From an uncultured Acidobacteriota bacterium (lineage in GTDB: Bacteria; Acidobacteriota; JAAYUB01), in the NCBI GenBank assembly GCA_937925645.1, contig CALAMB010000013.1, forward strand, positions 1 to 39,845: a stretch of DNA of 39,845 nt. Reading direction: 5' to 3'. The notes under the pieces were generated by a model. That model made no database searches. It was given only the letters and a program-made list of their open reading frames with translations, and was not told the origin of the DNA. The position numbers were made by a program, and so were the translations under genes. Numbering within the stretch: position 1 is the first letter of the stretch; each line of letters starts with the position of its first letter. Positions 3,036 through 35,880 of this stretch are shown one piece after another.

Positions 3036-4838
3036 TCACTCCGCGAAACGGACCACCGTCCGGACGCGGTTATCCGCCACCTCCAGGGCGAAGGTGCGGT
3101 ACACCGCCAGTTCCCCGCCGCCGGTATGGATCAGCCGGTCGGGCGGACCGAAACGGTCCGTCCACGCCTGCGGATCGGTGACCGCCACGGCGCTGTCCTC
3201 AACCAGCTCTAAAAAATAATCAAGTTCCAGAACCCGCAGGCGGTCCCCCCGGTAGACGCTGCCGGCGAAGTCGCCCACATCGAACGGGGTTTTCCGCAGG
3301 GGTTTCAGCCGCTTCTCAAGTTCGTCGGTCACCTCCCCCACAGACAGCCGGTCGGCGTGAAACGCCTTGAGTTGGAGATCCCGGGCGGCCGCCGCCGGCT
3401 TGGGCGGCGGCAGCCCCAGGACGCGCCGAACCTCATCCGCGTAAGGTCCCGCCGGTTCGATCTGGAGAAATGCCTGCCGGGCCTCGTGCGCCGAGGCGGC
3501 CCGCCCCCGCTCGGCGAGGATGGTCGACAGGTTGTAAACGGCCGCGCTTTCGCCGGGACGGCGCCCGATGATTTCCTTCAACTGGTCGATGGCCGCGCCG
3601 GAAGTGCTCAGCCCGCTGGATTCCCCCAACAGGTAGAGCGCCACGGCCCTGGCCACTCCGGCCGACGCGGCGGCCGGGTTCAGCTTGTCCGCCTCTTCAG
3701 CGGCGGCGAGGGCCTGGGCGTACTGCCGGTCCAGGATGAGCGCCGCCGCCAGGTTCAACCGAGCCGGCGCGTACAGCGGATCCCGGTCGGCCGCTTCGCG
3801 CAGGCACCGGATCGCCTGCTCGATCCGGTTACGAAAGGCGGGGTCTCGAAGGTAGTCCGGCCCCTCCTGGCGCCGGAGTTCATAGCGCCGGGCCGGCGTG
3901 ACAGGATCCAGTTGCGTCGGCAGCATGAAGCGCGTGCTGTCCGGGTGATTCTGGAAAGCCGGCGCCTGCCGGGCCAGCGCGTAGTGACAGAATCCCAGGT
4001 TGTTGAACACCTCGCGACCCGGGAACCGGTGGCTGAACCGCTCCAGCAACCGCACCGCGTCCTCATACCGGCCCAGCTGGGCGAGCCGGACGCCGAAGTG
4101 GAACAGGTCCAGTTCCTCGGCCACCTGCACCATCTGGCTCTTCAGGAAGACGGCCCGGTCGGCCGCGGCGGGATGCTCCCCGCTTTCGGCGACGGCGTGC
4201 GGGAGTTGCCGCACCCACTGTTCGAAGAACGATGTGCCGCCCCCCACGATCACCGCCGGGTCATACCCGGCGACGGTCATGTAGATGAGACCATAACTGT
4301 CCGCCTGAAGCTCCTTGATGCGGACGATGTCCCGGATGGCTCCGCCGGAGGCCATCGCGCCGTCGGTTTGCTTCAGCATTTCCTCCAGCAGCTGGCGGCG
4401 GTCCTCCGTCCCGGGATATTTTTGGAGCGCCATGAACGCGGACCGATGCCAGAAATCGTCTTTGGCCAGATGCGCCAGCTCGTGGCCCAGCAGAAACGCC
4501 AGCCGGGCATCGCCGTCCGCGGGGGGCACATCCAGATAGCAGAGGCGCAGGCCACCGGCGGACATGACGATGCTGCCGTCAGGCAGGGCGACGGCGTGCG
4601 GATCGCCGGCGCCCCGGATCATGACGAGTTTGGGCAGCCGGTTGCCCTTCTTGTCAGCGGCAGCGGCCACCCGCCGGAACACCTGTTCCGCCCGGCCTAC
4701 GAGCGGATCGTCCTGGGCGGTCATCAGGCCGTAATTCCGGATCCACCAGCCCGCCGAGTCGGCGGGATTGGCGTCCTGGGCGGCCAGCGCGACCGCCCAG
4801 CCGGCCAGGATGACGCCCACGAGCAGTTGTCGACGCAT
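3036..4838 (-). CDS. Exported M48-family metalloprotease with TPR repeats
   Basis: A 600-residue protein with a signal peptide (MRRQLLVGVILAGWAVALAAQ), placing it outside the cytoplasm. The zinc site is GHELAH (His119, Glu120, His123), with the third ligand in KELQADSYG (Glu about 176). This is the M48/gluzincin arrangement also seen in BepA-type periplasmic proteases. The C-terminal half (about residues 230-480) is rich in TPR-like helices (LGRYEDAVRLLERF, YALARQ, YAPARLNLAAALI). ATG 4838 is chosen over the GTG at 4844: the GTG overlaps the upstream stop, whereas the ATG has GGGGAG five bases before it. It is the last gene of the CHAT - sigma - anti-sigma unit and is translationally coupled or nearly so to the anti-sigma gene. 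A role in trimming the anti-sigma domain or other envelope proteins is inference. Confidence 0.9.
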   Translation of the reverse strand: MRRQLLVGVILAGWAVALAAQDANPADSAGWWIRNYGLMTAQDDPLVGRAEQVFRRVAAAADKKGNRLPKLVMIRGAGDPHAVALPDGSIVMSAGGLRLCYLDVPPADGDARLAFLLGHELAHLAKDDFWHRSAFMALQKYPGTEDRRQLLEEMLKQTDGAMASGGAIRDIVRIKELQADSYGLIYMTVAGYDPAVIVGGGTSFFEQWVRQLPHAVAESGEHPAAADRAVFLKSQMVQVAEELDLFHFGVRLAQLGRYEDAVRLLERFSHRFPGREVFNNLGFCHYALARQAPAFQNHPDSTRFMLPTQLDPVTPARRYELRRQEGPDYLRDPAFRNRIEQAIRCLREAADRDPLYAPARLNLAAALILDRQYAQALAAAEEADKLNPAAASAGVARAVALYLLGESSGLSTSGAAIDQLKEIIGRRPGESAAVYNLSTILAERGRAASAHEARQAFLQIEPAGPYADEVRRVLGLPPPKPAAAARDLQLKAFHADRLSVGEVTDELEKRLKPLRKTPFDVGDFAGSVYRGDRLRVLELDYFLELVEDSAVAVTDPQAWTDRFGPPDRLIHTGGGELAVYRTFALEVADNRVRTVVRFAE

Positions 4839-4840
4839 GG

Positions 4841-5875
4841 TCACTCCCCGCGCATCAGCAGCGCGATATCCACCAGCGCCCGATCGGCCCGGCGGAACGC
4901 CGCGGCATTGGGAAACCCCGCACCGGCCTGACGGCGGATCTCATCGAATGCGGCGGCGACACCCGGCGGGCAGGTGGCCGCGGCCAGGCCGGCCTGCAGG
5001 CGGTCCATCTCCGCGGCTTTGAAGTATCCGCGGTCACCGGCGCGCGCGGCGATCCGGCCGCCCTGCACCCAGGCGCCGAGCTCCATTCGCACCGCGCCGC
5101 GCTGGCCGGCTGCGGCCAGGGTGCGCTCGAACAGCTCCGCGGGCATCACGGCGCCCGTTCCCCGGATGGCGGCTTCCGCCCGGGCGTACTCCACCTGGAG
5201 TTCGGCGCCGGTGACCAGCCGGTTCAAGTCGTTCCGGATATCCGCCAGCCGGTCCGCGGCCGCGGTCCGGTTGCCGGCCTGCGCGCTGCGTTCACCATCC
5301 ACCCAGGTCACGCCCAGGCGAAACCAGCCGGTTGCCGGCGTGCCGCTGAAACCGTACGCCGCGTCATCCGGCAGCTGGAGATCCGCCGACCAGGCGGCGG
5401 AGTCCGCTCCCGGCGCGGTCAGGGTCTTCCGGATGCCCGCCAGTACGCCGCCCGGACGGATCATCTCCGTTGGAGCGCCGTCACCGTCTGCCGCCGGATC
5501 AGGCGGTGCCGGCACCGGCGCAGGTTCGGTCACCGGCGCCACCGGTGTCGACTCAACGACCATAGCCGGCGCCGGCGCGGCCACCTGCACCGGCGCCAGC
5601 GCGACGAACGCGGCCGCCAGCAGCAGCATGGCCGCCGCCGCCGCGGGCACGGCCCAGCGGGAGACCGCCCGGAAGGCGCGAACGGGCGCGTCGGCCGGAT
5701 TCATCGCGCGCGCGTCGACCTCCTGACGGAAGGCGACGGCGCCCGCCGCCAGATCGTAGCAGTCGGGGCACCGGTCCAGGTGGGCGACGATTTCCTGCCG
5801 CCGGCGGTCGTCGAGCCGACCGTCGGCCCAGGCGGCCAGTTCTTCCAATTCAGGGCATGGGATGTGTTGCGGCAT
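4841..5875 (-). CDS. Membrane-bound zinc anti-sigma factor (zf-HC2 type)
   Basis: A 344-residue protein. Residues 1-50 hold a zinc-binding anti-sigma module with H32-x3-C36-x2-C39 (HLDRCPDCYD), preceded by ELAAWADGRLDD. It fits the zinc-associated anti-sigma (ZAS/zf-HC2) family, which binds ECF sigma factors in the cytoplasm. A single membrane helix follows at about 70-93 (WAVPAAAAAMLLLAAAFVALAP), then a Pro/Ala/Val-rich linker and a roughly 210-residue extracytoplasmic domain I do not recognise. ATG 5875 is chosen because GGAGG lies 8 bases upstream; the in-frame GTG at 5884 overlaps that ribosome site. The gene lies 67 bases after the ECF sigma stop and overlaps the start region of the M48 gene. 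It is the likely partner of that sigma factor. Confidence 0.85.
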   Translation of the reverse strand: MPQHIPCPELEELAAWADGRLDDRRRQEIVAHLDRCPDCYDLAAGAVAFRQEVDARAMNPADAPVRAFRAVSRWAVPAAAAAMLLLAAAFVALAPVQVAAPAPAMVVESTPVAPVTEPAPVPAPPDPAADGDGAPTEMIRPGGVLAGIRKTLTAPGADSAAWSADLQLPDDAAYGFSGTPATGWFRLGVTWVDGERSAQAGNRTAAADRLADIRNDLNRLVTGAELQVEYARAEAAIRGTGAVMPAELFERTLAAAGQRGAVRMELGAWVQGGRIAARAGDRGYFKAAEMDRLQAGLAAATCPPGVAAAFDEIRRQAGAGFPNAAAFRRADRALVDIALLMRGE

Positions 5876-5942
5876 GTCATTCACCTCCAGCGGCTCGGGC
5901 CAGCATGGCGTTCATCGTCAGTAGACGGCCACGCGGTTGCAT

Positions 5943-6809
5943 TTAGCGGGGTTTTTCATCGTTCTCCCCGCCGGCCGCCGCCGGATCAACGGTTCCGTCC
6001 GCGTCAAAAAAGTCCAGCGTCTTGCGCGCGTCCGCGCAGGCCAGCATCTCGTCGATGGATTCCCGCACCACCCGCCGGCGGACCAGGAGCTTTCGCAGCC
6101 GCTCCTGGATTTTCTCGAAGCGCCGATAGAGGGCGACCTGGTTGCCGCCGAACGACCGGGCCAGCTGGGCCACGGTCAAACCCTCGACATACCGGAACTT
6201 GATGAGCAGACGGTCCTCGGCGGACAGTTCCGCCAGCGCGTCGCGCAGGGCCGCGCTCAGGCGCGCGGACTGCTCCACGTGACGGATCCGGCCCAGTTCC
6301 TTCTCCGCCGATTGCCCGTGCGCCGCCAGACCTTCCACCAGCTCCAGCGGCACCAGCGTCGCGGTCCGGCGCAGGGGCAGATCCGCCGCCAGCCGGAACA
6401 CCGCGTCCCGGTCCAAAGCGCCGCCGCCGCGGGTGTTGAGAATCTGAAAGGCCTCGTCGAAGGTGCGCCGCCCGCGCACCATCAGTTTTTCCAACTCCAC
6501 TGCCAGGTCGCCGTGCTTGAGCGCCGCGGCCGACGGACGCCACCGGCCCCGCTCCTGGGCGATGTAGTCCAGCAGCAGCCGCTGCACCACCGTCACCAGA
6601 AAGGTCTGGACGCTGCTCAGGCCTCTGAATTTCCTGAGGACGTCGTAGTCGTTTTCCACCAATCGGACCAGCACCCGGGACCGGAACTCCTCCATCTCAT
6701 CCGTGGCGAGCGACCGGCGCCGGCCCACCCAGCCGATGACCCGCTCCACCAGCGGCATGTTCTGGCTCAGGAACCCTTCCGGATCGTGAATGGGCGGTTC
6801 TAGCGCCAT
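5943..6809 (-). CDS. ECF-like sigma-70 family RNA polymerase sigma factor
   Basis: A 288-residue sigma factor. Region 2 lies at about residues 10-85 (DEMEEFRSRVLVRLVEN, then FRGLSSVQTFLVTVVQRLLLD). Region 4 lies at about 195-245 (LSAEDRLLIKFRYVEGLTVAQLA, then a helix-turn-helix ending YRRFEKIQERLRKLL). The roughly 100-residue segment between regions 2 and 4 is longer than in a standard ECF factor of about 170-200 residues. A C-terminal tail of about 45 residues follows region 4. The start ATG overlaps the last 10 bases of the CHAT gene, so translation is probably coupled; its own ribosome site is weak. The anti-sigma gene follows immediately. Target promoters are unknown. Confidence 0.88.
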   Translation of the reverse strand: MALEPPIHDPEGFLSQNMPLVERVIGWVGRRRSLATDEMEEFRSRVLVRLVENDYDVLRKFRGLSSVQTFLVTVVQRLLLDYIAQERGRWRPSAAALKHGDLAVELEKLMVRGRRTFDEAFQILNTRGGGALDRDAVFRLAADLPLRRTATLVPLELVEGLAAHGQSAEKELGRIRHVEQSARLSAALRDALAELSAEDRLLIKFRYVEGLTVAQLARSFGGNQVALYRRFEKIQERLRKLLVRRRVVRESIDEMLACADARKTLDFFDADGTVDPAAAGGENDEKPR

Positions 6810-9800
6810 TGTCCGTTCAGCACGAAGCCGGCCCAAAAGTACGGATGGCTGAAGTCCGGCGGATCGCCGGCCGGCTCCGCCGCCGCGAGGCGAACCTTGC
6901 CGTTGATGAACTCCCGCTGGGCGAGCCGGCTGGCCTCGGTCTTGGTTCGGCCCGACCGAAGATGCCGGTAGTACCGTTTCTGAAATGCCGCAGTGGAGGC
7001 GTCCGCGACGCTCCAGAGCGTGGACATCACCGTGCGCGCCCCGGCGTACAAGAAGGACCGGTTCAGCCCCACGAGCCCTTCGCCGCCGAGTTCGCGGCCC
7101 CGGGCGGTCTCGCACGCGGACAAACTCACCTGCTCGGCGTCTAGCCGCACACTCTCGAAAACCTCCCAGACCTGCAAAAAGCCGTTGTCCCGTTCCCCAT
7201 TCTCCTCCTCGGGAATGGCCAGGAGGAGTCCGCTGTCCATGGGATTGACCGGATCGTAAAAACCGTGACAAGCGAAGTGGACGTAACCGGGCTGCCGGTC
7301 CAGCGACTTCACCCGCTCCTCGCTGGCATCGGGGCCCAGGTACGCCACATGGGCATCGGGGTACAAGGCCGCAATTTCCCGCACCTCGTCGCGTGACGCG
7401 GGCAGGGGCGGGACCGCGTCATCGCGGAGCACCCACCGGAGCAGCCGCGCGGCCGGGCTGCCGTCGGCCTTGCCCGGATAGGCGGGATCACCGAACAGCA
7501 CCATTGGCCTGGAGACGCGTCGCGTTGCTTTCTCTGTCCCTTCGGCGAATACGGTCGCGGAGATCGCATAGGAGACGGGTTTCTCCTCGATCAGGTAGCG
7601 GCGCGTGGTGGGGCCCAGCGCCGCGAACGGCAGCATGTGCAGCGGACCGTCGGGGCATACCAGGATGCGGCGGGATCGCCGCACCAGGTCGTCGACCGGC
7701 GCCACGTACTGCTGGTAGAGCGCGTGGGCCCGACCCATCAGCCGGGTTTTCCGGCTGGCGGGATTGCTCAACTGGGCGAGGAAGTATTCCACCGACTCAT
7801 GGACCTGCTGCCGGCCGACCGGGATGGTCTCCACCCGCAACTGGCCGTTCAGGAGAGCAAACAGGTGGGTGGCCCGATCGTTCACCGCGTAGGAAAGAAA
7901 CAGGGTATCCGGCCCCACCACCCCGGCGACCTCATCGAGGGTCAAGGTTGCGGGCGTCCGCAACGCCGCCAGGCGCGGCGAGACCCTGCGGATTTCATCC
8001 CAGACCAATGCCTGCTCGCGGCGGCGCTCCGCCAACTGCCGTTGGAATTCGCTCACGCGTTCCGGTTCCTGGTCGGGATTGAGCTGCATCAGCACGTCCT
8101 GCGCTTCGCGGCTACGGGCTCGGGCGGTTTCGAGGCGCTCCAGCAGTTCCACCGGCGCGTCGCGGGAGAAGTCCAGGTCGCGTTCAGCCATCATCGCCAG
8201 CAGGCTGCGCGCCCGGTAGCGTTCCAGCGTGTCGAATGCGCCCCGGGGATCGTTCAACAGCAGTTTCAATTCCAGCACGTCCTTATAGAAGACCGCATAT
8301 TCAGCGGCGAAGGCTTCGGCGACCTCCCGGCTCCCGCCCAGTTTTTCCAACTGGCCCTCGAGCGCGGCTACGGCGCGCTCGTAGCAGACCAGGGCGTCGC
8401 GCAGCCGGTCCTGGCGGCGGCGGAGGTCCCCCCGGAGGTGTTCGATGACGGCCTCCTCGATGCTCAGGGGCGCCGTGGCGGCGACGATCTGTCGGGCTTG
8501 ATCCAGCAACGGCTCGGCGGCGGCGAGGTCGCCGCGTCGCAAGCACGTCTCGCCCAATCCCCGGAAGGACCGGGCCGCGTAAAGGCTGGCCGGGACGATT
8601 TCCCGGGCTTGATTCAACGCAGCCCGGTAATGGGCCTCGGCCTGGGTCAGGTCGCCGCTTTCCATGCGGATGGCGCCCAGGGTGAGCCGCATGCGGATCT
8701 GATTCAGCGGATCGTTTGCGGCCTGCTTCCGGATGGCCGCCGATTCCTGGTGGCGCGCCTCGGCCTCGGCAAACTTGTTTTCCAGGCGGGCCAGGTTGCC
8801 GAGTTGCTCCAGGCAGTCGGCGTGTTCCCGCGTGCGCGGGGCCTTCCGCTCCAGAATCTGCAGGGCTTTGCTGAGGTAGTCCGCCGCGGCCGGGAAATCC
8901 CGGCGGGCCATGGCGATCTGACCGACATTGTACAGCGTGCGAGCGAGACTCACGCTGTCCGGCTCCGCGGCCTGTTTGATTTTCAACGCGTGCAGGTTGT
9001 AGCGCTCCGCCTGCGCCAGATCGCCCCGCAGCCGGGCCACGGCGGCCAGATTGTTCAGGGTAAACGCCACCGCCATCGACTCCGGACTTTGCGCCTGTTT
9101 GAGCCGGAGGGCGTCCTCGAAGTATTGCTGGGCTTTAAGTTGGTGGCCGGCCTTGGATGCGTTGACGCCGAGCATGTTCAGAATGTTCGCTTCGGCGGCA
9201 TGACCCGGCAGGCGGCGCCGGTGGATGGCCAGCGCTTCCACCAGACAGCGGTCGGCAGCCGCCAGATCGCCGGTGTTGGCATACGCCGTGGCCAGCATCA
9301 GCAGCGAGCTCGACACCACCATGGAATCGGGCGCCACTTCCCGTCGGATCGCCAACGCGTTTTCATAGCACTGGACGGCTTCGGGCCAGCGGACCAGTTG
9401 CCAGGCGCCGTGGCCCAGGCCGGCGGTGCTGTTGGCGCGGCCCAGTTCCCCGCCGTCGTGCGTCCACGCGGCCAGCGCTTTCCGGTGGGCCTCCATGGCC
9501 GCTTCCGGCCGCTTGTCCAGACGCAGGAGTTCGCCCTGCATGTCCCAGATGATGGGCTGGAATCGCCCGGCGTCCACGGCGGCCAGCGCGTCGACACAGC
9601 GCCCGAGCGCCTCAACGGCCGCGGCCCACCGCTTTCCGTCGGCCAGGGCTTGCCCGGACCGGAACTGCAGCCACGCCGCCGACAGGTGGTCGCCCCGCGC
9701 GGCCGCTTCGGCTGCGCCGGCATCCCAGCGCGCCACGGCGCCTTCCAGGTTTTTCGTTTCGAGCAGCCGCTCCCCCTCTCCCTGTGCCACGCCGGCTGCG

Positions 9801-10162
9801 CCGGCCAGTGCCGGCCGCACCGAAAGCCGCCATTCGTAGGCCGGAATCGCCATCCAGCGCTCGATTTCTCCGCGACGCACCAGGAGCTCGACACCGCCGC
9901 GTGGTCCGTGCAGGATCTCCACCTCCTTGAGATGGAAAAATGAACTCAGGTCTCCGCCGGTTTCCCCCAAACCCGCGAGCCGTCTCCAGCGCAGCAGCAC
10001 GTCGTCCGGCTGGACGCCGGCCGCGGCGAGGGCGAAACCGGCATCCGCTCGCACCACGGTCAATCCGGCCCCGACCGGCGGCGGATCCTCTGCCCGGAGG
10101 CCGATCGCCAACGCGCCCCACAGCACCCACAGGCAAACCAACGGCCCATACGATCGATTCAC
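6800..10162 (-). CDS. Exported PDZ-like / TPR / CHAT caspase-type protease
   Basis: An 1120-residue protein. A Sec signal peptide (MNRSYGPLVCLWVLWGALAIGLRA) is followed by a short PDZ-like segment at about 30-105 (GLTVVRADAGFALAAAGVQPDD, then LLRWRRL). Around 120-600 lie many tandem TPRs, with units such as ALAIRREVAPDS and ALKIKQAAEPDS. A CHAT domain occupies about 770-1120. The caspase-like dyad is intact: His966 in HFACHG and Cys1017 in LSACETA, with GLVGLNRSFLYAGARTV and the C-terminal FWAGFVLNG also present. CHAT proteins are clan CD cysteine peptidases. The start is GTG 10162 with AGGAG nine bases upstream; a promoter candidate lies at 10216-10244. The export signal means its substrate should be extracytoplasmic. 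The 3' end overlaps the sigma gene by 10 bases. Confidence 0.9.
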   Translation of the reverse strand: MNRSYGPLVCLWVLWGALAIGLRAEDPPPVGAGLTVVRADAGFALAAAGVQPDDVLLRWRRLAGLGETGGDLSSFFHLKEVEILHGPRGGVELLVRRGEIERWMAIPAYEWRLSVRPALAGAAGVAQGEGERLLETKNLEGAVARWDAGAAEAAARGDHLSAAWLQFRSGQALADGKRWAAAVEALGRCVDALAAVDAGRFQPIIWDMQGELLRLDKRPEAAMEAHRKALAAWTHDGGELGRANSTAGLGHGAWQLVRWPEAVQCYENALAIRREVAPDSMVVSSSLLMLATAYANTGDLAAADRCLVEALAIHRRRLPGHAAEANILNMLGVNASKAGHQLKAQQYFEDALRLKQAQSPESMAVAFTLNNLAAVARLRGDLAQAERYNLHALKIKQAAEPDSVSLARTLYNVGQIAMARRDFPAAADYLSKALQILERKAPRTREHADCLEQLGNLARLENKFAEAEARHQESAAIRKQAANDPLNQIRMRLTLGAIRMESGDLTQAEAHYRAALNQAREIVPASLYAARSFRGLGETCLRRGDLAAAEPLLDQARQIVAATAPLSIEEAVIEHLRGDLRRRQDRLRDALVCYERAVAALEGQLEKLGGSREVAEAFAAEYAVFYKDVLELKLLLNDPRGAFDTLERYRARSLLAMMAERDLDFSRDAPVELLERLETARARSREAQDVLMQLNPDQEPERVSEFQRQLAERRREQALVWDEIRRVSPRLAALRTPATLTLDEVAGVVGPDTLFLSYAVNDRATHLFALLNGQLRVETIPVGRQQVHESVEYFLAQLSNPASRKTRLMGRAHALYQQYVAPVDDLVRRSRRILVCPDGPLHMLPFAALGPTTRRYLIEEKPVSYAISATVFAEGTEKATRRVSRPMVLFGDPAYPGKADGSPAARLLRWVLRDDAVPPLPASRDEVREIAALYPDAHVAYLGPDASEERVKSLDRQPGYVHFACHGFYDPVNPMDSGLLLAIPEEENGERDNGFLQVWEVFESVRLDAEQVSLSACETARGRELGGEGLVGLNRSFLYAGARTVMSTLWSVADASTAAFQKRYYRHLRSGRTKTEASRLAQREFINGKVRLAAAEPAGDPPDFSHPYFWAGFVLNGQWR

Positions 10163-10215
10163 GGCTATGTTCTCCTGCCGAGCGGTATCCGTCTCTTCCG
10201 CGCGGCTGCAGCAAC

Positions 10216-10244
10216 ATAGTAAAAGCAGCGGAAAGAGAACTCAA
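10216..10244 (-). promoter_or_regulatory. Candidate promoter for the CHAT - sigma - anti-sigma - M48 operon
   Basis: On the minus strand TTGAGT (10244-10239) and TACTAT (10221-10216) are 17 bases apart, each matching the sigma70 consensus at 4 of 6. The predicted transcript start is near 10209, leaving about 47 bases of leader before GTG 10162. It lies in the 171-base gap between the unknown secreted protein and the CHAT gene. I saw no GGAAC-type ECF promoter here. Confidence 0.45.
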
Positions 10245-11356: not shown

Positions 11357-13546
11357 CTAGCGGTTCCCGCTGCCGGCAGGGACGGAACCGCCGGCAGTGA
11401 CCGCGGGGATGAACGCGATCCGCTTGAAGCCGGCGGCCAGGGAGCGGACGTCTTCGCCGACGCCGGCGGATCGGGGGGATCGGCTGAAGGCAAAAGCCAG
11501 GGTGAACAGGTTTTCGCCCGCCGCGAGCCGGTCACCGGGAACCGGCAGCCGGTACTCTGCCAATTCATCGGCCAGTGCGATCCGGCCCAGCTCATGCCCG
11601 TTGACGGCAACCCGGATTACTTGCGGCGGGCTGCCGGGCAGCCGGGGCGGGAAGACGACCAGTTCCAGGGTGCCGCCCGCGGCCGGTTCGCTGATCCGGA
11701 AGCGGATCTCCGCCCGGTGGCCCACGGCCCAGATGTATCGTTCACCGGCCCTGCCGTCCGGGTTCTGGCTCCAGCCCGACACCAGATAGGGACGCCAGCG
11801 CCACGGCGCCTCCAGGTCGATGGCCGTGCGCTCGCCGGCCGCGCCCGGCTCCGACCGCAGCCGGTAGACGCGCGCCTCGTGCCCGCCGCCTGTTGCAAGA
11901 CGAGCGACCAGCCGAAAGCCGTCGGGACCCAAGTCCGACCCGAAGCCGAGCTCGTTGAGATAGCAGGCGCCGATGCGGGCGTGCCAATAGTCGCTCCGGA
12001 CATCGTCCCGGTAGGTGCTGAGCCAGACCACGTGGCTCACCTTGTGCTCCCGGCACTGCCTGGCCAGACTCGGACCGCCAGGCCAGTCAAAATCGAAAAC
12101 GCTGATCAGGCGGCCGCGCACCTCGTCCCACGGAACGCGCGCCGCCGCCAGCCACGGCTCCGCCATCGCCGCCCGCTCGCCTACCGGAACATGCCGCGCC
12201 ACCCACCGGACGGCGGCCACCGTCTCGCTGAACGCCCACTTCTGCCGCTCGTACGTCCGGTCCCACCCCGCCACCTGGGGCCACAGGCAGGCCAGCACGA
12301 CGGCGATGATCGCGCCCGGCACCCACCGCGGCCACCGCCACCCGGCGGGCGAGAGCACGGCGAAGGCCGCCGCGTACAGCGCCGCGAACGCCCACAGCCA
12401 CCCCACGTGAGGCGATCGCGGCAGTCCGCATGCGGCCCACGCAATCCCTCCGGCCAAGGCGAACCACGCGGCGCCCGGCCAGAGGCCCGTTGCCGGTTGC
12501 GGCCCGTCAGCCGGCTTCGGCTCGATGGCCGCGAACAGGACGAACAGCACCAGCGGCAGCAGGGGCACGTGGTACCGATAGGTGGCGATCCCGAACACGC
12601 CGTGGACGGAGAAATAGCTGAACAGGTAACCTGCCAGCAGCGCGGCGACCCACCGGTCGCGCCGCCACAGGCGGACCAGCCCGGCCAGGAACAGGATCGA
12701 AACGCCGGCAAACAGCGGGATCTCGGCGCCCGAGAGCTCGCTCCCGTCGGGCGCGTGGCCGATGACCATCTGGAACAGGATCCGGAGCATGACCCAGAAC
12801 ACGGTGGACCCTGACCGATCGATCATTTCTTCGACATACGGGTTGACCTGCCGGCTGTGCGCCACGCTCAGCGCCAGCCAGGCCAACGGCAGCGCCATGG
12901 CCGCGGCGCCGTACAGCAGGTACCGCCACCGCCGGCCGGATTCGAAAAACCGCATGACGGCGAAGGCCGGCGCCAGGAAGAACGCGTCCCAGCGCGTCAG
13001 CGCCGCGAAACCTGCTGCCACATACCCGCCGCTGTGGCGGCGCGCGGCCAGCCACAGACTGACGGTACCCAGCGCCAACAGCGTCATCTCCAGCAGGGGT
13101 TGGGTGGCGAATTCCAAAAAGTAGGGATTGATCACGACGAACAGCACCAGCAGCGGCGCCCCCCACGGCACGTACCGCCGGGCAAACAAGAACAAACCGG
13201 CTGCGCCGGCGAGCGCCGCCAGCGCCGAAACCAGCTGGGCCGCGTGGATCACGGCGGCGGGGCCCGGCCAGAGCAGGGAGACGAGGGCAATGACCGCCGG
13301 GTAGAGGGGCAGAACCTTGTAATAGTCCGGCGCCCGGAGATCGAGGAGCCGTTGCGCCTGCGAGGTGAACTGGACGTAGTCGTTATGGGGCAGCGCGTAG
13401 AAGTCAAACAGGTAAACCAGCAGGCCGGCGAGGCCCAGCAGGAGGATCGATCCGAGGATCCACTCGCGCCGGCTCAGCGGACAGTCGGGCCCCCGCCCGG
13501 CCTCCGGCATATCGCCTGCTCTCCCCGCGCCACCTCCCCTGGACAC
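11357..13546 (-). CDS. GT39/ArnT-like membrane glycosyltransferase with C-terminal beta-sandwich-like extension
   Basis: A 729-residue protein. About 10-12 membrane helices fill residues 25-410. The first outer loop holds an acidic catalytic-type motif (LPHNDYVQF), and later LTRWDAFFLAPAF appears, as in GT39/PMT-like enzymes using polyprenyl-phosphate sugars. A soluble region follows, and the last 155 residues or so look like a beta-sandwich. It has SGWSQNP, then IRVAVNGHELGRI, YRLPVPGDRLAAGEN and a conserved-looking FSRSPRSAG tail, reminiscent of jelly-roll carbohydrate-binding modules. GTG 13546 is taken as start because AAGGAGG lies four bases upstream; ATG 13510 is a possible alternative. 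The gene lies 73 bases after the DUF1684 lipoprotein gene and is probably in its operon. The family call is good; the sugar and acceptor are unknown. Confidence 0.82.
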   Translation of the reverse strand: MSRGGGAGRAGDMPEAGRGPDCPLSRREWILGSILLLGLAGLLVYLFDFYALPHNDYVQFTSQAQRLLDLRAPDYYKVLPLYPAVIALVSLLWPGPAAVIHAAQLVSALAALAGAAGLFLFARRYVPWGAPLLVLFVVINPYFLEFATQPLLEMTLLALGTVSLWLAARRHSGGYVAAGFAALTRWDAFFLAPAFAVMRFFESGRRWRYLLYGAAAMALPLAWLALSVAHSRQVNPYVEEMIDRSGSTVFWVMLRILFQMVIGHAPDGSELSGAEIPLFAGVSILFLAGLVRLWRRDRWVAALLAGYLFSYFSVHGVFGIATYRYHVPLLPLVLFVLFAAIEPKPADGPQPATGLWPGAAWFALAGGIAWAACGLPRSPHVGWLWAFAALYAAAFAVLSPAGWRWPRWVPGAIIAVVLACLWPQVAGWDRTYERQKWAFSETVAAVRWVARHVPVGERAAMAEPWLAAARVPWDEVRGRLISVFDFDWPGGPSLARQCREHKVSHVVWLSTYRDDVRSDYWHARIGACYLNELGFGSDLGPDGFRLVARLATGGGHEARVYRLRSEPGAAGERTAIDLEAPWRWRPYLVSGWSQNPDGRAGERYIWAVGHRAEIRFRISEPAAGGTLELVVFPPRLPGSPPQVIRVAVNGHELGRIALADELAEYRLPVPGDRLAAGENLFTLAFAFSRSPRSAGVGEDVRSLAAGFKRIAFIPAVTAGGSVPAGSGNR

Positions 13547-24757: not shown

Positions 24758-27229
24758 TCAGTTGAAGGACGTCGCCGGGGGCAGGACGATCTGGTACTGG
24801 TCCAGCACCGGCTGGATCAGCGCCCGTTCCCGGAGCCGGCGCTCTCTTTGGTTGACCAATCCCTGCTTCCGCAGCGCCTGGTATTCCGCTGTCCGGCGGA
24901 CGTCGGCCAACAAGGGATTCCGGTCGAAGTAGCCCCAGTCGGTGAAGCCGATGTCGACGGTCTGCCGCATGAATTCCATCGCTTCATCGGTCTGGCCGCT
25001 CAGCGAAAAACACTCGGCCATCAACAGCGACAAGTCGTAATCGAGCCGGGCGACCCGGCTGAAGCGCTCGCTCGGGTCAAACGGGGCCCGGTCCCCCCGG
25101 AGGCAGGCGATCTGATGACGGACCGCCCGGGTCGGCAGCAGTTCCGGCAGTTTCTTGACGAGCCGGTCCGCCGTCTCGATGTCGCCCGACATCATGGCCA
25201 GGCGGATATGGTCCAATTGCACGAAATAGTATTGGGGCGAATCCCGCAACAGCGCGTGGAGCATCTCCCGGGCTTCGGCCTGGCGATCCGCCTGGATGAG
25301 GTTCCGGGCGAGGTTGAGCCGGATAAAATCGTGCTCGGGATACAATCTCAGCGCGTACCGGCACAGGGCGGTCGAGGCTTCGTGGTCGCCGTTGAGGCGG
25401 AAAATGGTCGCCGCCTGGCTGAACTGCATCACCTCCAGCCGGTCGGACCGGAACTGCTCCACCAGCCGGCGCATCGCCTCCTCCATCCGGCCCTGCTGGA
25501 TCTCCAGCAGAACGCTCAAGCGGAGGAGTGGACCGAAATCCGGCTGGAGCGCCTGGCCCTTCTCCAGATAATAGCGGCTGTAGGACAGGCTGTCGGGCTC
25601 CATCGAATTCCACGTGTTGACGGCCTGATAGTGCAACTCCGCCAGGCCGGCATACAGGATCACCGACGGCTCGATCTGCAGCGCGCGCTCCAGCAACGCC
25701 TTGGCTTCACCGAACGCGCCGGAATCGCCATGGCTCATGTCCTCGATCTTGCCGACGGATTTGAGATACAGTTCGTAGGCCGTGGGATTGATCTCCATCT
25801 CCGGGTCCGCCGGCGGCCGATCCAGCCAGGCCATGTTCTGGCGGTACACCTGCCGCACCATGGATTGCAGGTTGCTCGCCGACAACGGCATGCGGTCCGT
25901 CCACAGCAGGCTGCCCGAAGTGTTCGCCAGCCGGTATTCCAGCTCGATGCCGCCGGCGCGCGAACGCAACCGGCCTGTTTGGATAAAATCCGCTCCGCGG
26001 GCCCGGCTGGCCTTCACCACCTCCTCGAAGCGGGCCGGGCCCTGGGCCAGATCGCCGATGGGCACCACGCTTACGGCGCCGCTCGCCGGATAGAGCCGGG
26101 CCAGTTCGGCCGTGATGCCCTGGGTGACAAAGTTGTACGCGGGCTGGCCCGTTTCATTGACGAACGGCATGATGGCGACGGCTACGGGCCGGCGGGTTCC
26201 AGGCCAGAAGATCAACCAACCCGCGATCGCCGCCGCCACCGCCGCAGCCGCCGCCACCGCCGCCCACTTCCACCGGGCGCGCGGCGGGACCAGCGCCGGC
26301 ATGCCCGTTCCGGCGGTGGGAATCTCCGCTCCGATGTCGGCCAGCAGTTCCTCAATTCGCTGATACCGGTCCGCCGGCGATTTGGCCATGGCTTTGGCGA
26401 CGGCGGCGTGGAGCCACGGGGGCGCGTCCGGCACCCGTTGGCGCAGCGAGGGCGGCTCCTCGTGCATGACCTGAAACAACACCGTCACCAGGTTGGGGTC
26501 GGTGAAGGGCCGCTGGCCGGCGATCATCTCATAGGCCATGCAGCCGAGGGCGTACACATCGGTTCGCCCGTCGACCGCTTCGCCGCGGATCATTTCGGGC
26601 GCCATGTAGGCGGGCGTGCCGATGAGCGAGTCGCTGTGGGTCAGCGTGGCCTTGTCCATGACCCGGGCGGTGCCGAAATCACCCAGTTTCACCGTGCCGT
26701 CCTGGGCCAGGAACACGTTGGCCGGCTTGAGATCCCGGTGGACGACGCCGCCGGCGTGGGCAAACGCCAGCGCCGATCCGACCTGGCCGATGATCCGGAC
26801 CGCGGTGGGAATATCCAGCGGCCCGCGCCGCCGCAGCAGGTCGCGCAGCGTCTCGCCTTCAACATGTTCCATGATGATGGCCAGGCGCCCGTCGTGCTCC
26901 ACGACGTCGTGCACCGTGACGATGTGGCGGTGCTGGAGCCTCGCCGCCGCCTGGGCCTCACGCAAGAACCGCTGCGTCGCCTCGTCGCCCTTGCTGTCGC
27001 CGAGAACTTCCTTGCGCAGCACTTTGACACAAACCGCCCGCTCCAGCCGCTGGTCCCAGGCGTAGAAGACCTCGCCATAGCTGCCGCTGCCCAGCCGGCG
27101 ACGGACCTGATATCGCGGCGGGATCCCTTCGGGTTGCCGGTCGAGCGGCGGCACGCCATCACCCGCGGGTGCCTGGTTCACCCGATGGGTGTCTGCCTGT
27201 TGATCGCCTGGTCGCCCGTTCATGGCCAT
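24758..27229 (-). CDS. Membrane Ser/Thr protein kinase with TolB/FlgO-like and TPR C-terminal region
   Basis: An 823-residue protein. The Hanks-type kinase domain spans about 40-300. It has the glycine loop GSGSYG (47-52), Lys69, HRDLKPANV with catalytic Asp166, DFG at 184-186 and GTPAYMAPE, so it should be active. One membrane helix at about 321-343 (WAAVAAAAAVAAAIAGWLIFW) follows. The outer part starts with a TolB-N/FlgO-like segment (VAIMPFVNETGQPAYNFVTQG, then GADFIQTGRLRSRAGGIELEYRL) and continues with TPR-like helices to the end. ATG 27229 has AAGGGGA five bases upstream. It is divergent from the GT39-like and PP2C phosphatase genes. The kinase may sense an envelope or glycan signal through its outer region; this is inference. 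Confidence 0.92.
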   Translation of the reverse strand: MAMNGRPGDQQADTHRVNQAPAGDGVPPLDRQPEGIPPRYQVRRRLGSGSYGEVFYAWDQRLERAVCVKVLRKEVLGDSKGDEATQRFLREAQAAARLQHRHIVTVHDVVEHDGRLAIIMEHVEGETLRDLLRRRGPLDIPTAVRIIGQVGSALAFAHAGGVVHRDLKPANVFLAQDGTVKLGDFGTARVMDKATLTHSDSLIGTPAYMAPEMIRGEAVDGRTDVYALGCMAYEMIAGQRPFTDPNLVTVLFQVMHEEPPSLRQRVPDAPPWLHAAVAKAMAKSPADRYQRIEELLADIGAEIPTAGTGMPALVPPRARWKWAAVAAAAAVAAAIAGWLIFWPGTRRPVAVAIMPFVNETGQPAYNFVTQGITAELARLYPASGAVSVVPIGDLAQGPARFEEVVKASRARGADFIQTGRLRSRAGGIELEYRLANTSGSLLWTDRMPLSASNLQSMVRQVYRQNMAWLDRPPADPEMEINPTAYELYLKSVGKIEDMSHGDSGAFGEAKALLERALQIEPSVILYAGLAELHYQAVNTWNSMEPDSLSYSRYYLEKGQALQPDFGPLLRLSVLLEIQQGRMEEAMRRLVEQFRSDRLEVMQFSQAATIFRLNGDHEASTALCRYALRLYPEHDFIRLNLARNLIQADRQAEAREMLHALLRDSPQYYFVQLDHIRLAMMSGDIETADRLVKKLPELLPTRAVRHQIACLRGDRAPFDPSERFSRVARLDYDLSLLMAECFSLSGQTDEAMEFMRQTVDIGFTDWGYFDRNPLLADVRRTAEYQALRKQGLVNQRERRLRERALIQPVLDQYQIVLPPATSFN

Positions 27230-34401: not shown

Positions 34402-35880
34402 ATGTTCGAAACCGCTGAAGTGATCCAGAAGGTCGGCAAAGACGCCTATGAGCAGCAGGTGCCCGCGCTCCGGGCGGCGCTGCTCGAGGCGCAGCGGGAA
34501 CTCGCTGCGTCGAACCGTGGCGTGATCGTGCTGGTGGGCGGCGTCGAGGGCGCCGGCAAGACCAGCACCGTCAACCTCCTCCACGAATGGCTGGACGCGC
34601 GCGGCATCGAGACCCACGCCATGAGCGAGCCCACCGACGAGGAGCGGATGCGGCCGCCCATGTGGCGGTTCTGGCGCGTGCTGCCGCCCCGCGGCCGGAT
34701 GGCCGTGTTTCTCGGCTCCTGGTACACCCTGCCCGTCATCGAACGCGTCTTCGGCCGGATGGGCGGCGCCCGCTTTCAGGCGCGGCTGGACCGCATCGTC
34801 GCCTTCGAGGAGCTGCTGGCGCGCGAGGGCTACCTGGTGGTCAAGTTCTGGCTGCACCTGTCGCGCAAGGCGCAGAAGCAGCGCCTCGAGGCGCTGGAAC
34901 GCGATCCGCTCCAGAAGTGGCGGGTCCGGCCCATCGACTGGAAGTACTTCAAGCGGTACGACCGCTTCCGCGAGATTTCCGAAATCGCCATCCGGCGGAC
35001 GAGCACCGGCGCCGCCCCGTGGCACATCATCGCCGCCGGCGACGCGAATTTCCGCAACCTGTCCGTGGCCGGGGCCCTGCTGCAAACCATGACCGACGGA
35101 CTGGCCGCCGCCGGCCACGCCGCCGCCCCGAAGCCGAAGCCCGACCTGCCGAAACCCGAGGCGGCCAACATCATCCGGGCGCTGGACCTGTCCCGCCGCG
35201 CCGACGGCAAGGGATACGACAAGCGGCTGCTGCGCTGCCAGGGCCGGTTCAACCGGCTCACCCGCCGGCTCTACGAGGAGCAGCGCCAGCTCATCCTGGT
35301 GTTCGAAGGCCCCGACGCCGGTGGCAAGGGCGGGACCATCCGGCGCCTCACCCAGGCCATGGACGCCCGCAACTACCAGGTAACCAGCATCGCCGCGCCC
35401 ACCGACGAGGAGCGCGCCCGCCCGTACCTGTGGCGCTTCTGGCGCCATCTGCCGCGGCAGGGCCGGGTGTCGATCTACGACCGCTCCTGGTACGGCCGGG
35501 TGCTGGTGGAGCGTCTCGAGGGCTTCTGCTCCCGTGCCGACTGGCAGCGGGCGTACGCCGAAATCAACGCCTTCGAGGAGGAGCTCACGGATTTCGGCAT
35601 CATCGTCGTCAAGTTCTGGCTGGCCATCAGCCCCGAAGAGCAGCTGCGACGTTTCAAGGATCGCCAGGTCACGCCCTACAAGCAGTACAAAATAACCGAA
35701 GAGGACTGGCGCAACCGGGCCAAGTGGGACGCCTACGAAGCCGCCGCGGTGGACATGATCGAGCGGACCAGCACCACCCGCGCGCCGTGGGTGCTGGTGG
35801 AGGCCGAGGACAAGCGCTGGGCCCGGCTCAAGGTGCTCAAGGCCGCGATCCGGCATGTCCGGCGGGAGCTGGACCGCTGA
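34402..35880 (+). CDS. pap: Two-domain PPK2, polyphosphate:AMP phosphotransferase type
   Basis: A 492-residue tandem PPK2 protein, the length of class II PPK2 (PAP) enzymes, which phosphorylate AMP to ADP with polyphosphate. The C-terminal domain is complete: Walker A FEGPDAGGKGGT (301-312), APTDEERARPYLWRFWRHLP lid region, Walker B IYDRSWYGRVLVERLEGF with Asp360. The N-terminal domain keeps a Walker A (GGVEGAGKTS, 46-55) and EPTDEERMRPPMWRFWRVLP. Its Walker B position reads FLGSWYTLPVIE, with glycine (105) in place of the aspartate, so it may not be catalytic. ATG 34402 has GGAGGGG upstream. It lies 61 bases before the S9 peptidase gene and probably shares its transcript. Confidence 0.92.
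   Translation: MFETAEVIQKVGKDAYEQQVPALRAALLEAQRELAASNRGVIVLVGGVEGAGKTSTVNLLHEWLDARGIETHAMSEPTDEERMRPPMWRFWRVLPPRGRMAVFLGSWYTLPVIERVFGRMGGARFQARLDRIVAFEELLAREGYLVVKFWLHLSRKAQKQRLEALERDPLQKWRVRPIDWKYFKRYDRFREISEIAIRRTSTGAAPWHIIAAGDANFRNLSVAGALLQTMTDGLAAAGHAAAPKPKPDLPKPEAANIIRALDLSRRADGKGYDKRLLRCQGRFNRLTRRLYEEQRQLILVFEGPDAGGKGGTIRRLTQAMDARNYQVTSIAAPTDEERARPYLWRFWRHLPRQGRVSIYDRSWYGRVLVERLEGFCSRADWQRAYAEINAFEEELTDFGIIVVKFWLAISPEEQLRRFKDRQVTPYKQYKITEEDWRNRAKWDAYEAAAVDMIERTSTTRAPWVLVEAEDKRWARLKVLKAAIRHVRRELDR

Follow-up and report, generated by a model that had tools for sequence, protein, structure and literature searches.

A separate TPR-CHAT protein encoded with an ECF-type sigma factor and a zinc anti-sigma factor in an uncultured Acidobacteriota bacterium: a recurrent association and a possible envelope switch

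The genes for a TPR-CHAT protein, an ECF-type sigma factor and a zinc anti-sigma factor lie together in the window, by which we mean the whole stretch of 39,845 nucleotides analyzed here, and the recurrence of this association in related loci supports the view that the three belong together. A sequence-only reading had joined them with a fourth gene, for an M48-TPR protein, into one unit. The link among the first three stands, as it recurs and is reinforced by gene fusions; the M48 gene belongs to the operon of this lineage, and its membership of the switch is not supported. The arrangement is of a known kind, represented by DdvA and by ECF54 sigma genes with CHAT neighbors, from which the window differs in having a separate CHAT protein, in the position of the CHAT gene before the sigma gene and in the lineage of its CHAT. 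By analogy, we see about an even chance that CHAT would act in trans on the anti-sigma factor and that the two, with the sigma factor, would form an envelope switch that works as DdvS/DdvA does.

The four genes occupy positions 3036-10162 of the minus strand in the order CHAT, sigma, anti-sigma, M48, with the following features.

3036..4844, minus strand: M48-TPR protein, 602 aa (Peptidase_M48, E 3.9e-10, Pfam)
4470..4484, minus strand: HELAH zinc-protease motif of M48, read from the translation
4841..5884, minus strand: anti-sigma factor, 347 aa, with zinc finger, TM helix, linker and helical outer domain (zf-HC2, E 1.6e-7, Pfam)
5330..5596, minus strand: low-confidence linker by prediction, residues about 97-185, putative place of cutting
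5588..5644, minus strand: predicted TM helix of the anti-sigma factor (hydrophobicity scan)
5759..5782, minus strand: HxxxCxxC zinc motif (H35, C39, C42) in the zf-HC2 region
5943..6809, minus strand: sigma-70 family (ECF-type) sigma factor, 288 aa from ATG (TIGR02937)
6800..10162, minus strand: TPR-CHAT protein, 1120 aa, CHAT domain at residues 812-1117
7112..7114, minus strand: codon (TGC) of predicted catalytic Cys1017, from alignment
7265..7267, minus strand: codon (CAC) of predicted catalytic His966, from alignment
10215..10244, minus strand: promoter-like block upstream of CHAT, with partial conservation in three relatives

The sigma start codon lies 10 nt upstream of the end of the CHAT gene, giving a 10-nt overlap, and the M48 and anti-sigma genes overlap by 4 nt, provided that the M48 GTG is the start. 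The sequence-only reading had described four genes in one direction, with overlaps or short gaps and with intact active sites, and this holds: all four lie on the minus strand with Pfam or NCBIfam support for each identity, the CHAT dyad is intact by alignment, and HxxxCxxC and HELAH can be read directly in the translations. Its upstream promoter candidate came through only in part, as the block listed above retains some conservation but a consensus scan for a promoter upstream of CHAT found none. The neighborhood check that it had proposed likewise gave a divided answer. The sigma/anti-sigma/CHAT link recurs widely, but among the 74 loci described below the window order, with CHAT directly before sigma and with anti-sigma and M48 after it, is common to L001, L002 and L105 only. 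Synteny in these three relatives extends into the flanking genes on either side, and because of this the conservation of four genes there is weak evidence.

Elsewhere in the window, positions 11357-13546 hold a 729-residue gene that has no Pfam match and is missing from the corresponding syntenic region in L001 and L105, positions 24758-27229 encode a TPR-bearing Ser/Thr protein kinase, and positions 34402-35880 encode a protein with two PPK2 domains, whose tandem duplication is also visible as a DNA repeat.

The window CHAT protein matches the Pfam CHAT model (PF12770, E 5.7e-64), along with TPRs, and combines the CHAT fold with a His/Cys dyad, as defines a CHAT peptidase. Its dyad aligns with those of Csx29 and DdvA. 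His966 and Cys1017 are invariant across the window CHAT and its three closest relatives, 27 of the 28 CHAT frames near window-type sigma genes retain both dyad positions, and in a CHAT alignment of 40 rows Cys is present in 40/40 and His in 38/40. Conservation of the dyad almost without exception speaks for proteolysis over mere binding. The N-termini of both the CHAT and the M48 proteins, read by eye, carry a hydrophobic, signal-like stretch, and the window CHAT is a separate, apparently exported protein. A PDZ domain considered for this protein was not supported.

The sigma factor matches TIGR02937 above its cut-off (E 1e-15), with Pfam sigma regions 2 and 4 below theirs, and its PDB matches cover mainly region 4. 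Across the family, regions 2 and 4 are separated by a long conserved stretch (window 6450-6548) whose consensus in the family alignment, GKWRPSAAARR... and then E.L..RDGLTFDEA, matches no Pfam model. Judged from this alignment, the stretch is the mark of a distinct sigma family. Two loci hold unusual members: at L124:7461-10121 an 887-residue frame opens with a sigma of the window family and continues without a Pfam family, and L033:8633-10753 carries two window-family sigma genes in opposite orientation, one of which has a zinc-finger/CHAT fusion.

The window anti-sigma factor has HxxxCxxC within a small helical domain, the hallmark of ZAS anti-sigma factors. In the family alignment, many of its homologues (L005, L006, L010 and others) keep the helical domain without the HxxxCxxC ligands, so that zinc appears to be dispensable in parts of the family.

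To place the window among its relatives, we scanned the sigma family alignment against genome contigs, which yielded 54 loci, most of them in records of Acidobacteriota and Gemmatimonadota. With 20 further stretches these make a set of 74 loci (L001-L054 and L105-L124) plus the window, searched with iterated profiles over all open frames of at least 60 residues. In a phylum sample, the sigma family (E <= 1e-30) occurs in 30 of 396 Acidobacteriota genomes. L001, the nearest relative, belongs to a class of six genomes, three of which have a window-type sigma; in two others the only matches are other ECF-like sigmas. The sigma rows number 80 including the window, of which 61 are assessable after exclusion of 19 with short flanks. 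A CHAT lies within 5 kb of the sigma gene, on either strand, in 37 of these 61, and about 0.024 CHAT per sigma locus is expected by chance, a figure based on a density of 184 CHAT matches over about 106.9 Mb, in 19 genomes that were themselves chosen for having a window-type sigma. The remaining 24 of 61 have no CHAT within that distance; the sigma family therefore does not require CHAT.

The fusions are the closest form of this association. In 12 of the 74 loci (L004, L009, L012, L017, L024, L027, L033, L034, L107, L114, L115 and L117), a zinc finger and a CHAT lie on one frame directly after the sigma gene. A hydrophobic TM helix stands just behind the zinc finger in 12/12, HxxxCxxC is kept in 11/12, and some also bear TPRs, which gives a zinc-finger/TM/TPR/CHAT layout on one chain. 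Three additional zinc-finger/TM/CHAT fusions (L169, L175 and L176) were found among other CHAT regions. The non-fusion loci have the zinc-finger protein and CHAT as separate neighbors, or CHAT on the opposite strand. The sole locus without a dyad, L027:9971-14042, looks degraded, with its sigma split by a stop and its fusion CHAT in two pieces.

Such arrangements can be read in more than one way. Sigma genes often adjoin their target genes, and CHAT might accordingly be a target of the sigma, an effector of the response that lies outside the sensing path; its place on the opposite strand near the sigma in several loci would fit this. The zinc-finger/TM/CHAT fusions, however, place CHAT in the regulator itself, and the window CHAT is encoded before the sigma, with which it overlaps, which makes a target gene quite unlikely. 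The fusions would suit equally a CHAT that serves as a sensor or assembly part and does not cut, the TPR-CHAT protein binding the outer domain and changing its grip on sigma. The structures of DdvA (PDB 8ROT, 8RW5 and 8RLZ) are titled as those of a dimeric transmembrane anti-sigma factor, and the large outer domain was reportedly proposed as a sensor in the DdvA study, both in keeping with such a part. Yet the His/Cys dyad is kept almost throughout, fusions included, and mere binding needs no dyad; we consider a non-cutting role unlikely.

On the sigma tree, by a quick method and with many weak forks, the link to CHAT changed at least 12 times and the fused versus separate state at least 6 times. 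In the CHAT phylogeny, the four CHATs of window type cluster with those of L125, L126, L132 and L135 (96% SH-aLRT), none of which has a sigma within 2.5 kb, and 31 of the 35 other CHATs beside window-type sigma genes fall into the opposite half, beyond an 86% branch. The two nearest CHAT homologues in G021, the nearest relative in the class to lack a window-type sigma, show 43% and 42% and have no sigma in the fetched stretches. A CHAT of another branch thus adjoins the sigma in the window lineage, and the tree would be explained either by a second recruitment of CHAT to the sigma or by chance proximity. A chance neighbor of the sigma/anti-sigma pair is suggested by the occurrence of this CHAT lineage without sigma and by a gene order common to four genomes only, inside wider synteny. 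We nevertheless judge it improbable, as the ten-base CHAT/sigma overlap is present in both the window and L001 and kin of the window sigma are linked to CHAT elsewhere far above chance. A second recruitment, if true, would strengthen the functional link.

The M48 protein presents a different picture. With a gene that overlaps the anti-sigma gene, an intact active site and, within the six-genome class, a full-length match in exactly the three sigma-bearing genomes, M48 could be thought to cut the anti-sigma factor, with CHAT secondary. M48 adjoins a window-type sigma, however, in only 3 of 74 loci, all of them the close relatives with two-sided synteny (L001, L002 and L105), and its homologues are widespread (287 proteins). 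A primary role for M48 is thus highly improbable, and it may help the switch or simply travel with it in this lineage.

Structural comparison connects the window to DdvA, a Myxococcus xanthus protein whose partner is the ECF sigma DdvS. In Foldseek, the first match of the window CHAT is DdvA, a transmembrane anti-sigma factor of solved structure; in the VIA ranking, Csx29 and separase chains stand above it. Kin of the window anti-sigma factor give a profile match to DdvA residues 8-116. Like DdvA, the window anti-sigma factor has an N-terminal zinc finger followed by one TM segment, the fusions of related loci share the layout of zinc finger, TM and CHAT, and the window CHAT shares the dyad residues. 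Unlike in DdvA, the window CHAT is on its own chain and encoded before the sigma, whereas in the 12 fusion loci a single chain carries CHAT and zinc finger, and the window anti-sigma factor has a helical outer domain of its own. As zinc finger and CHAT are on separate chains, we regard the window as working like the DdvA type and do not file it as a member.

The claim that no system of this composition had been described requires correction, both by DdvA, with its zinc finger and CHAT, and by ECF54/CHAT, which is already in print in a review (PMC8999054, section 3.3). There, ECF54 sigma genes have CHAT genes in their context and proteolytic control is proposed. The likeness is that a CHAT gene adjoins an ECF sigma gene; the difference is that PMC8999054 presents ECF54 without an anti-sigma factor and the window has one. 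A CHAT domain and an anti-sigma factor are also named together in one paper, PMC10028731. Literature searches, which demonstrably miss relevant statements, returned no zinc anti-sigma factor on which a separate CHAT protein acts in trans and no report of the frequency of the CHAT/sigma link in Acidobacteriota.

Two other systems invite comparison. Csx29 is the TPR-CHAT protease of type III-E CRISPR (Craspase), found with Csx30 and CASP-sigma. The window differs in having a membrane zinc-finger anti-sigma factor in place of Csx30, and assignment of its CHAT to the Csx29 family was rejected (NF041237, 34 bits against a cut-off of 300). No array of CRISPR form was present among the direct repeats of the 39.8-kb window, neither Cas7-11 nor Csx30 was found among the scanned window proteins, which cover part of its genes, and PADLOC called none of the four operon proteins Csx or Cas, its matches being one TPR model and one weak Cas1. 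The earlier description of the operon as lacking CRISPR is in line with these results. The Cas1 match, to the sigma (E 0.0013), was taken as noise. In the second system, DegS and RseP release RpoE from RseA by proteolysis. The window resembles it in having a membrane anti-sigma factor, and RseP is found above cut-off in the genomes of two of the three window relatives, the third being an incomplete-looking assembly without a full match; it differs in having a CHAT cysteine-protease fold where DegS would be.

Taken as a switch of the DdvS/DdvA kind, the window proteins would act as follows. The zinc-finger domain of the anti-sigma factor would hold sigma at the inner membrane, and the TPR-CHAT protein, outside the membrane, would sense a signal through its TPRs. 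The target of CHAT would then be the outer part of the anti-sigma factor, where a cut in the linker (residues 97-185) is the most likely action, and follow-up proteolysis, of the RseP type and then cytoplasmic, would free sigma. We infer the location of CHAT outside the membrane, its contact with the anti-sigma factor, the cutting and the sign of the response. The split form lends itself to testing: with the protease and its supposed substrate on different chains, a Cys mutant is directly comparable. If CHAT does cut the anti-sigma factor, the CHAT domain of DdvA would gain an explanation, and a caspase-fold protease family familiar chiefly through CRISPR would commonly serve envelope signaling in two large, little-studied phyla.

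CHAT genes also adjoin sigma genes of other families. We examined 54 CHAT regions (L131-L184) from 14 of the 19 genomes, hand-picked with best matches first, and dropped six as window-family sigma loci; 20 stretches from six of the genomes served as controls. A different ECF-type sigma lies within 2.5 kb of CHAT in 27 of the 48 remaining Acidobacteriota regions, against 1/20 controls, scored near the middle (Fisher p 8.3e-5), and anywhere in the stretch in 29/48 against 2/20. Of the 27 neighboring sigma genes, 17 share the strand of CHAT and 10 lie on the opposite one. A zinc-finger profile match adjoins the sigma in 10 of the 48 regions, and a frame with HxxxCxxC plus TM follows the sigma in 16 of the 27 sigma-bearing regions (0/20 controls). 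All ten sigma frames checked pass TIGR02937, nine of them from the 27 regions and one (L131) 3.4 kb from CHAT. In Gemmatimonadota, CHAT is present in 8 of 31 genomes, and an uncontrolled hand count over 13 CHAT stretches, all but two of the CHAT places, found a sigma within 2.5 kb in seven, of which four are of the window family and three are other sigmas; five of these seven have a zinc-finger frame. Tentatively, and with more doubt than confidence, we extend the proposal to CHAT as a general class of first-cut protease that serves the ECF sigma/zinc anti-sigma switches of Acidobacteriota and Gemmatimonadota, acting in cis, as in DdvA-like proteins, or in trans, as in the window, where a second CHAT lineage would have been recruited to one and the same sigma family.

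Proteins without family assignment accompany several of these loci. In other ECF/anti-sigma/CHAT operons, a protein of ~300 residues with an F.ASA...GG start and no Pfam match lies between anti-sigma and CHAT (L157:4099-4947, L165:9297-10307 and L168:8932-9870), and small proteins of 175-200 residues with no Pfam match above cut-off are encoded near sigma, anti-sigma and CHAT at L134:6221-6745, L142:6024-6623 and L150:9899-10477.
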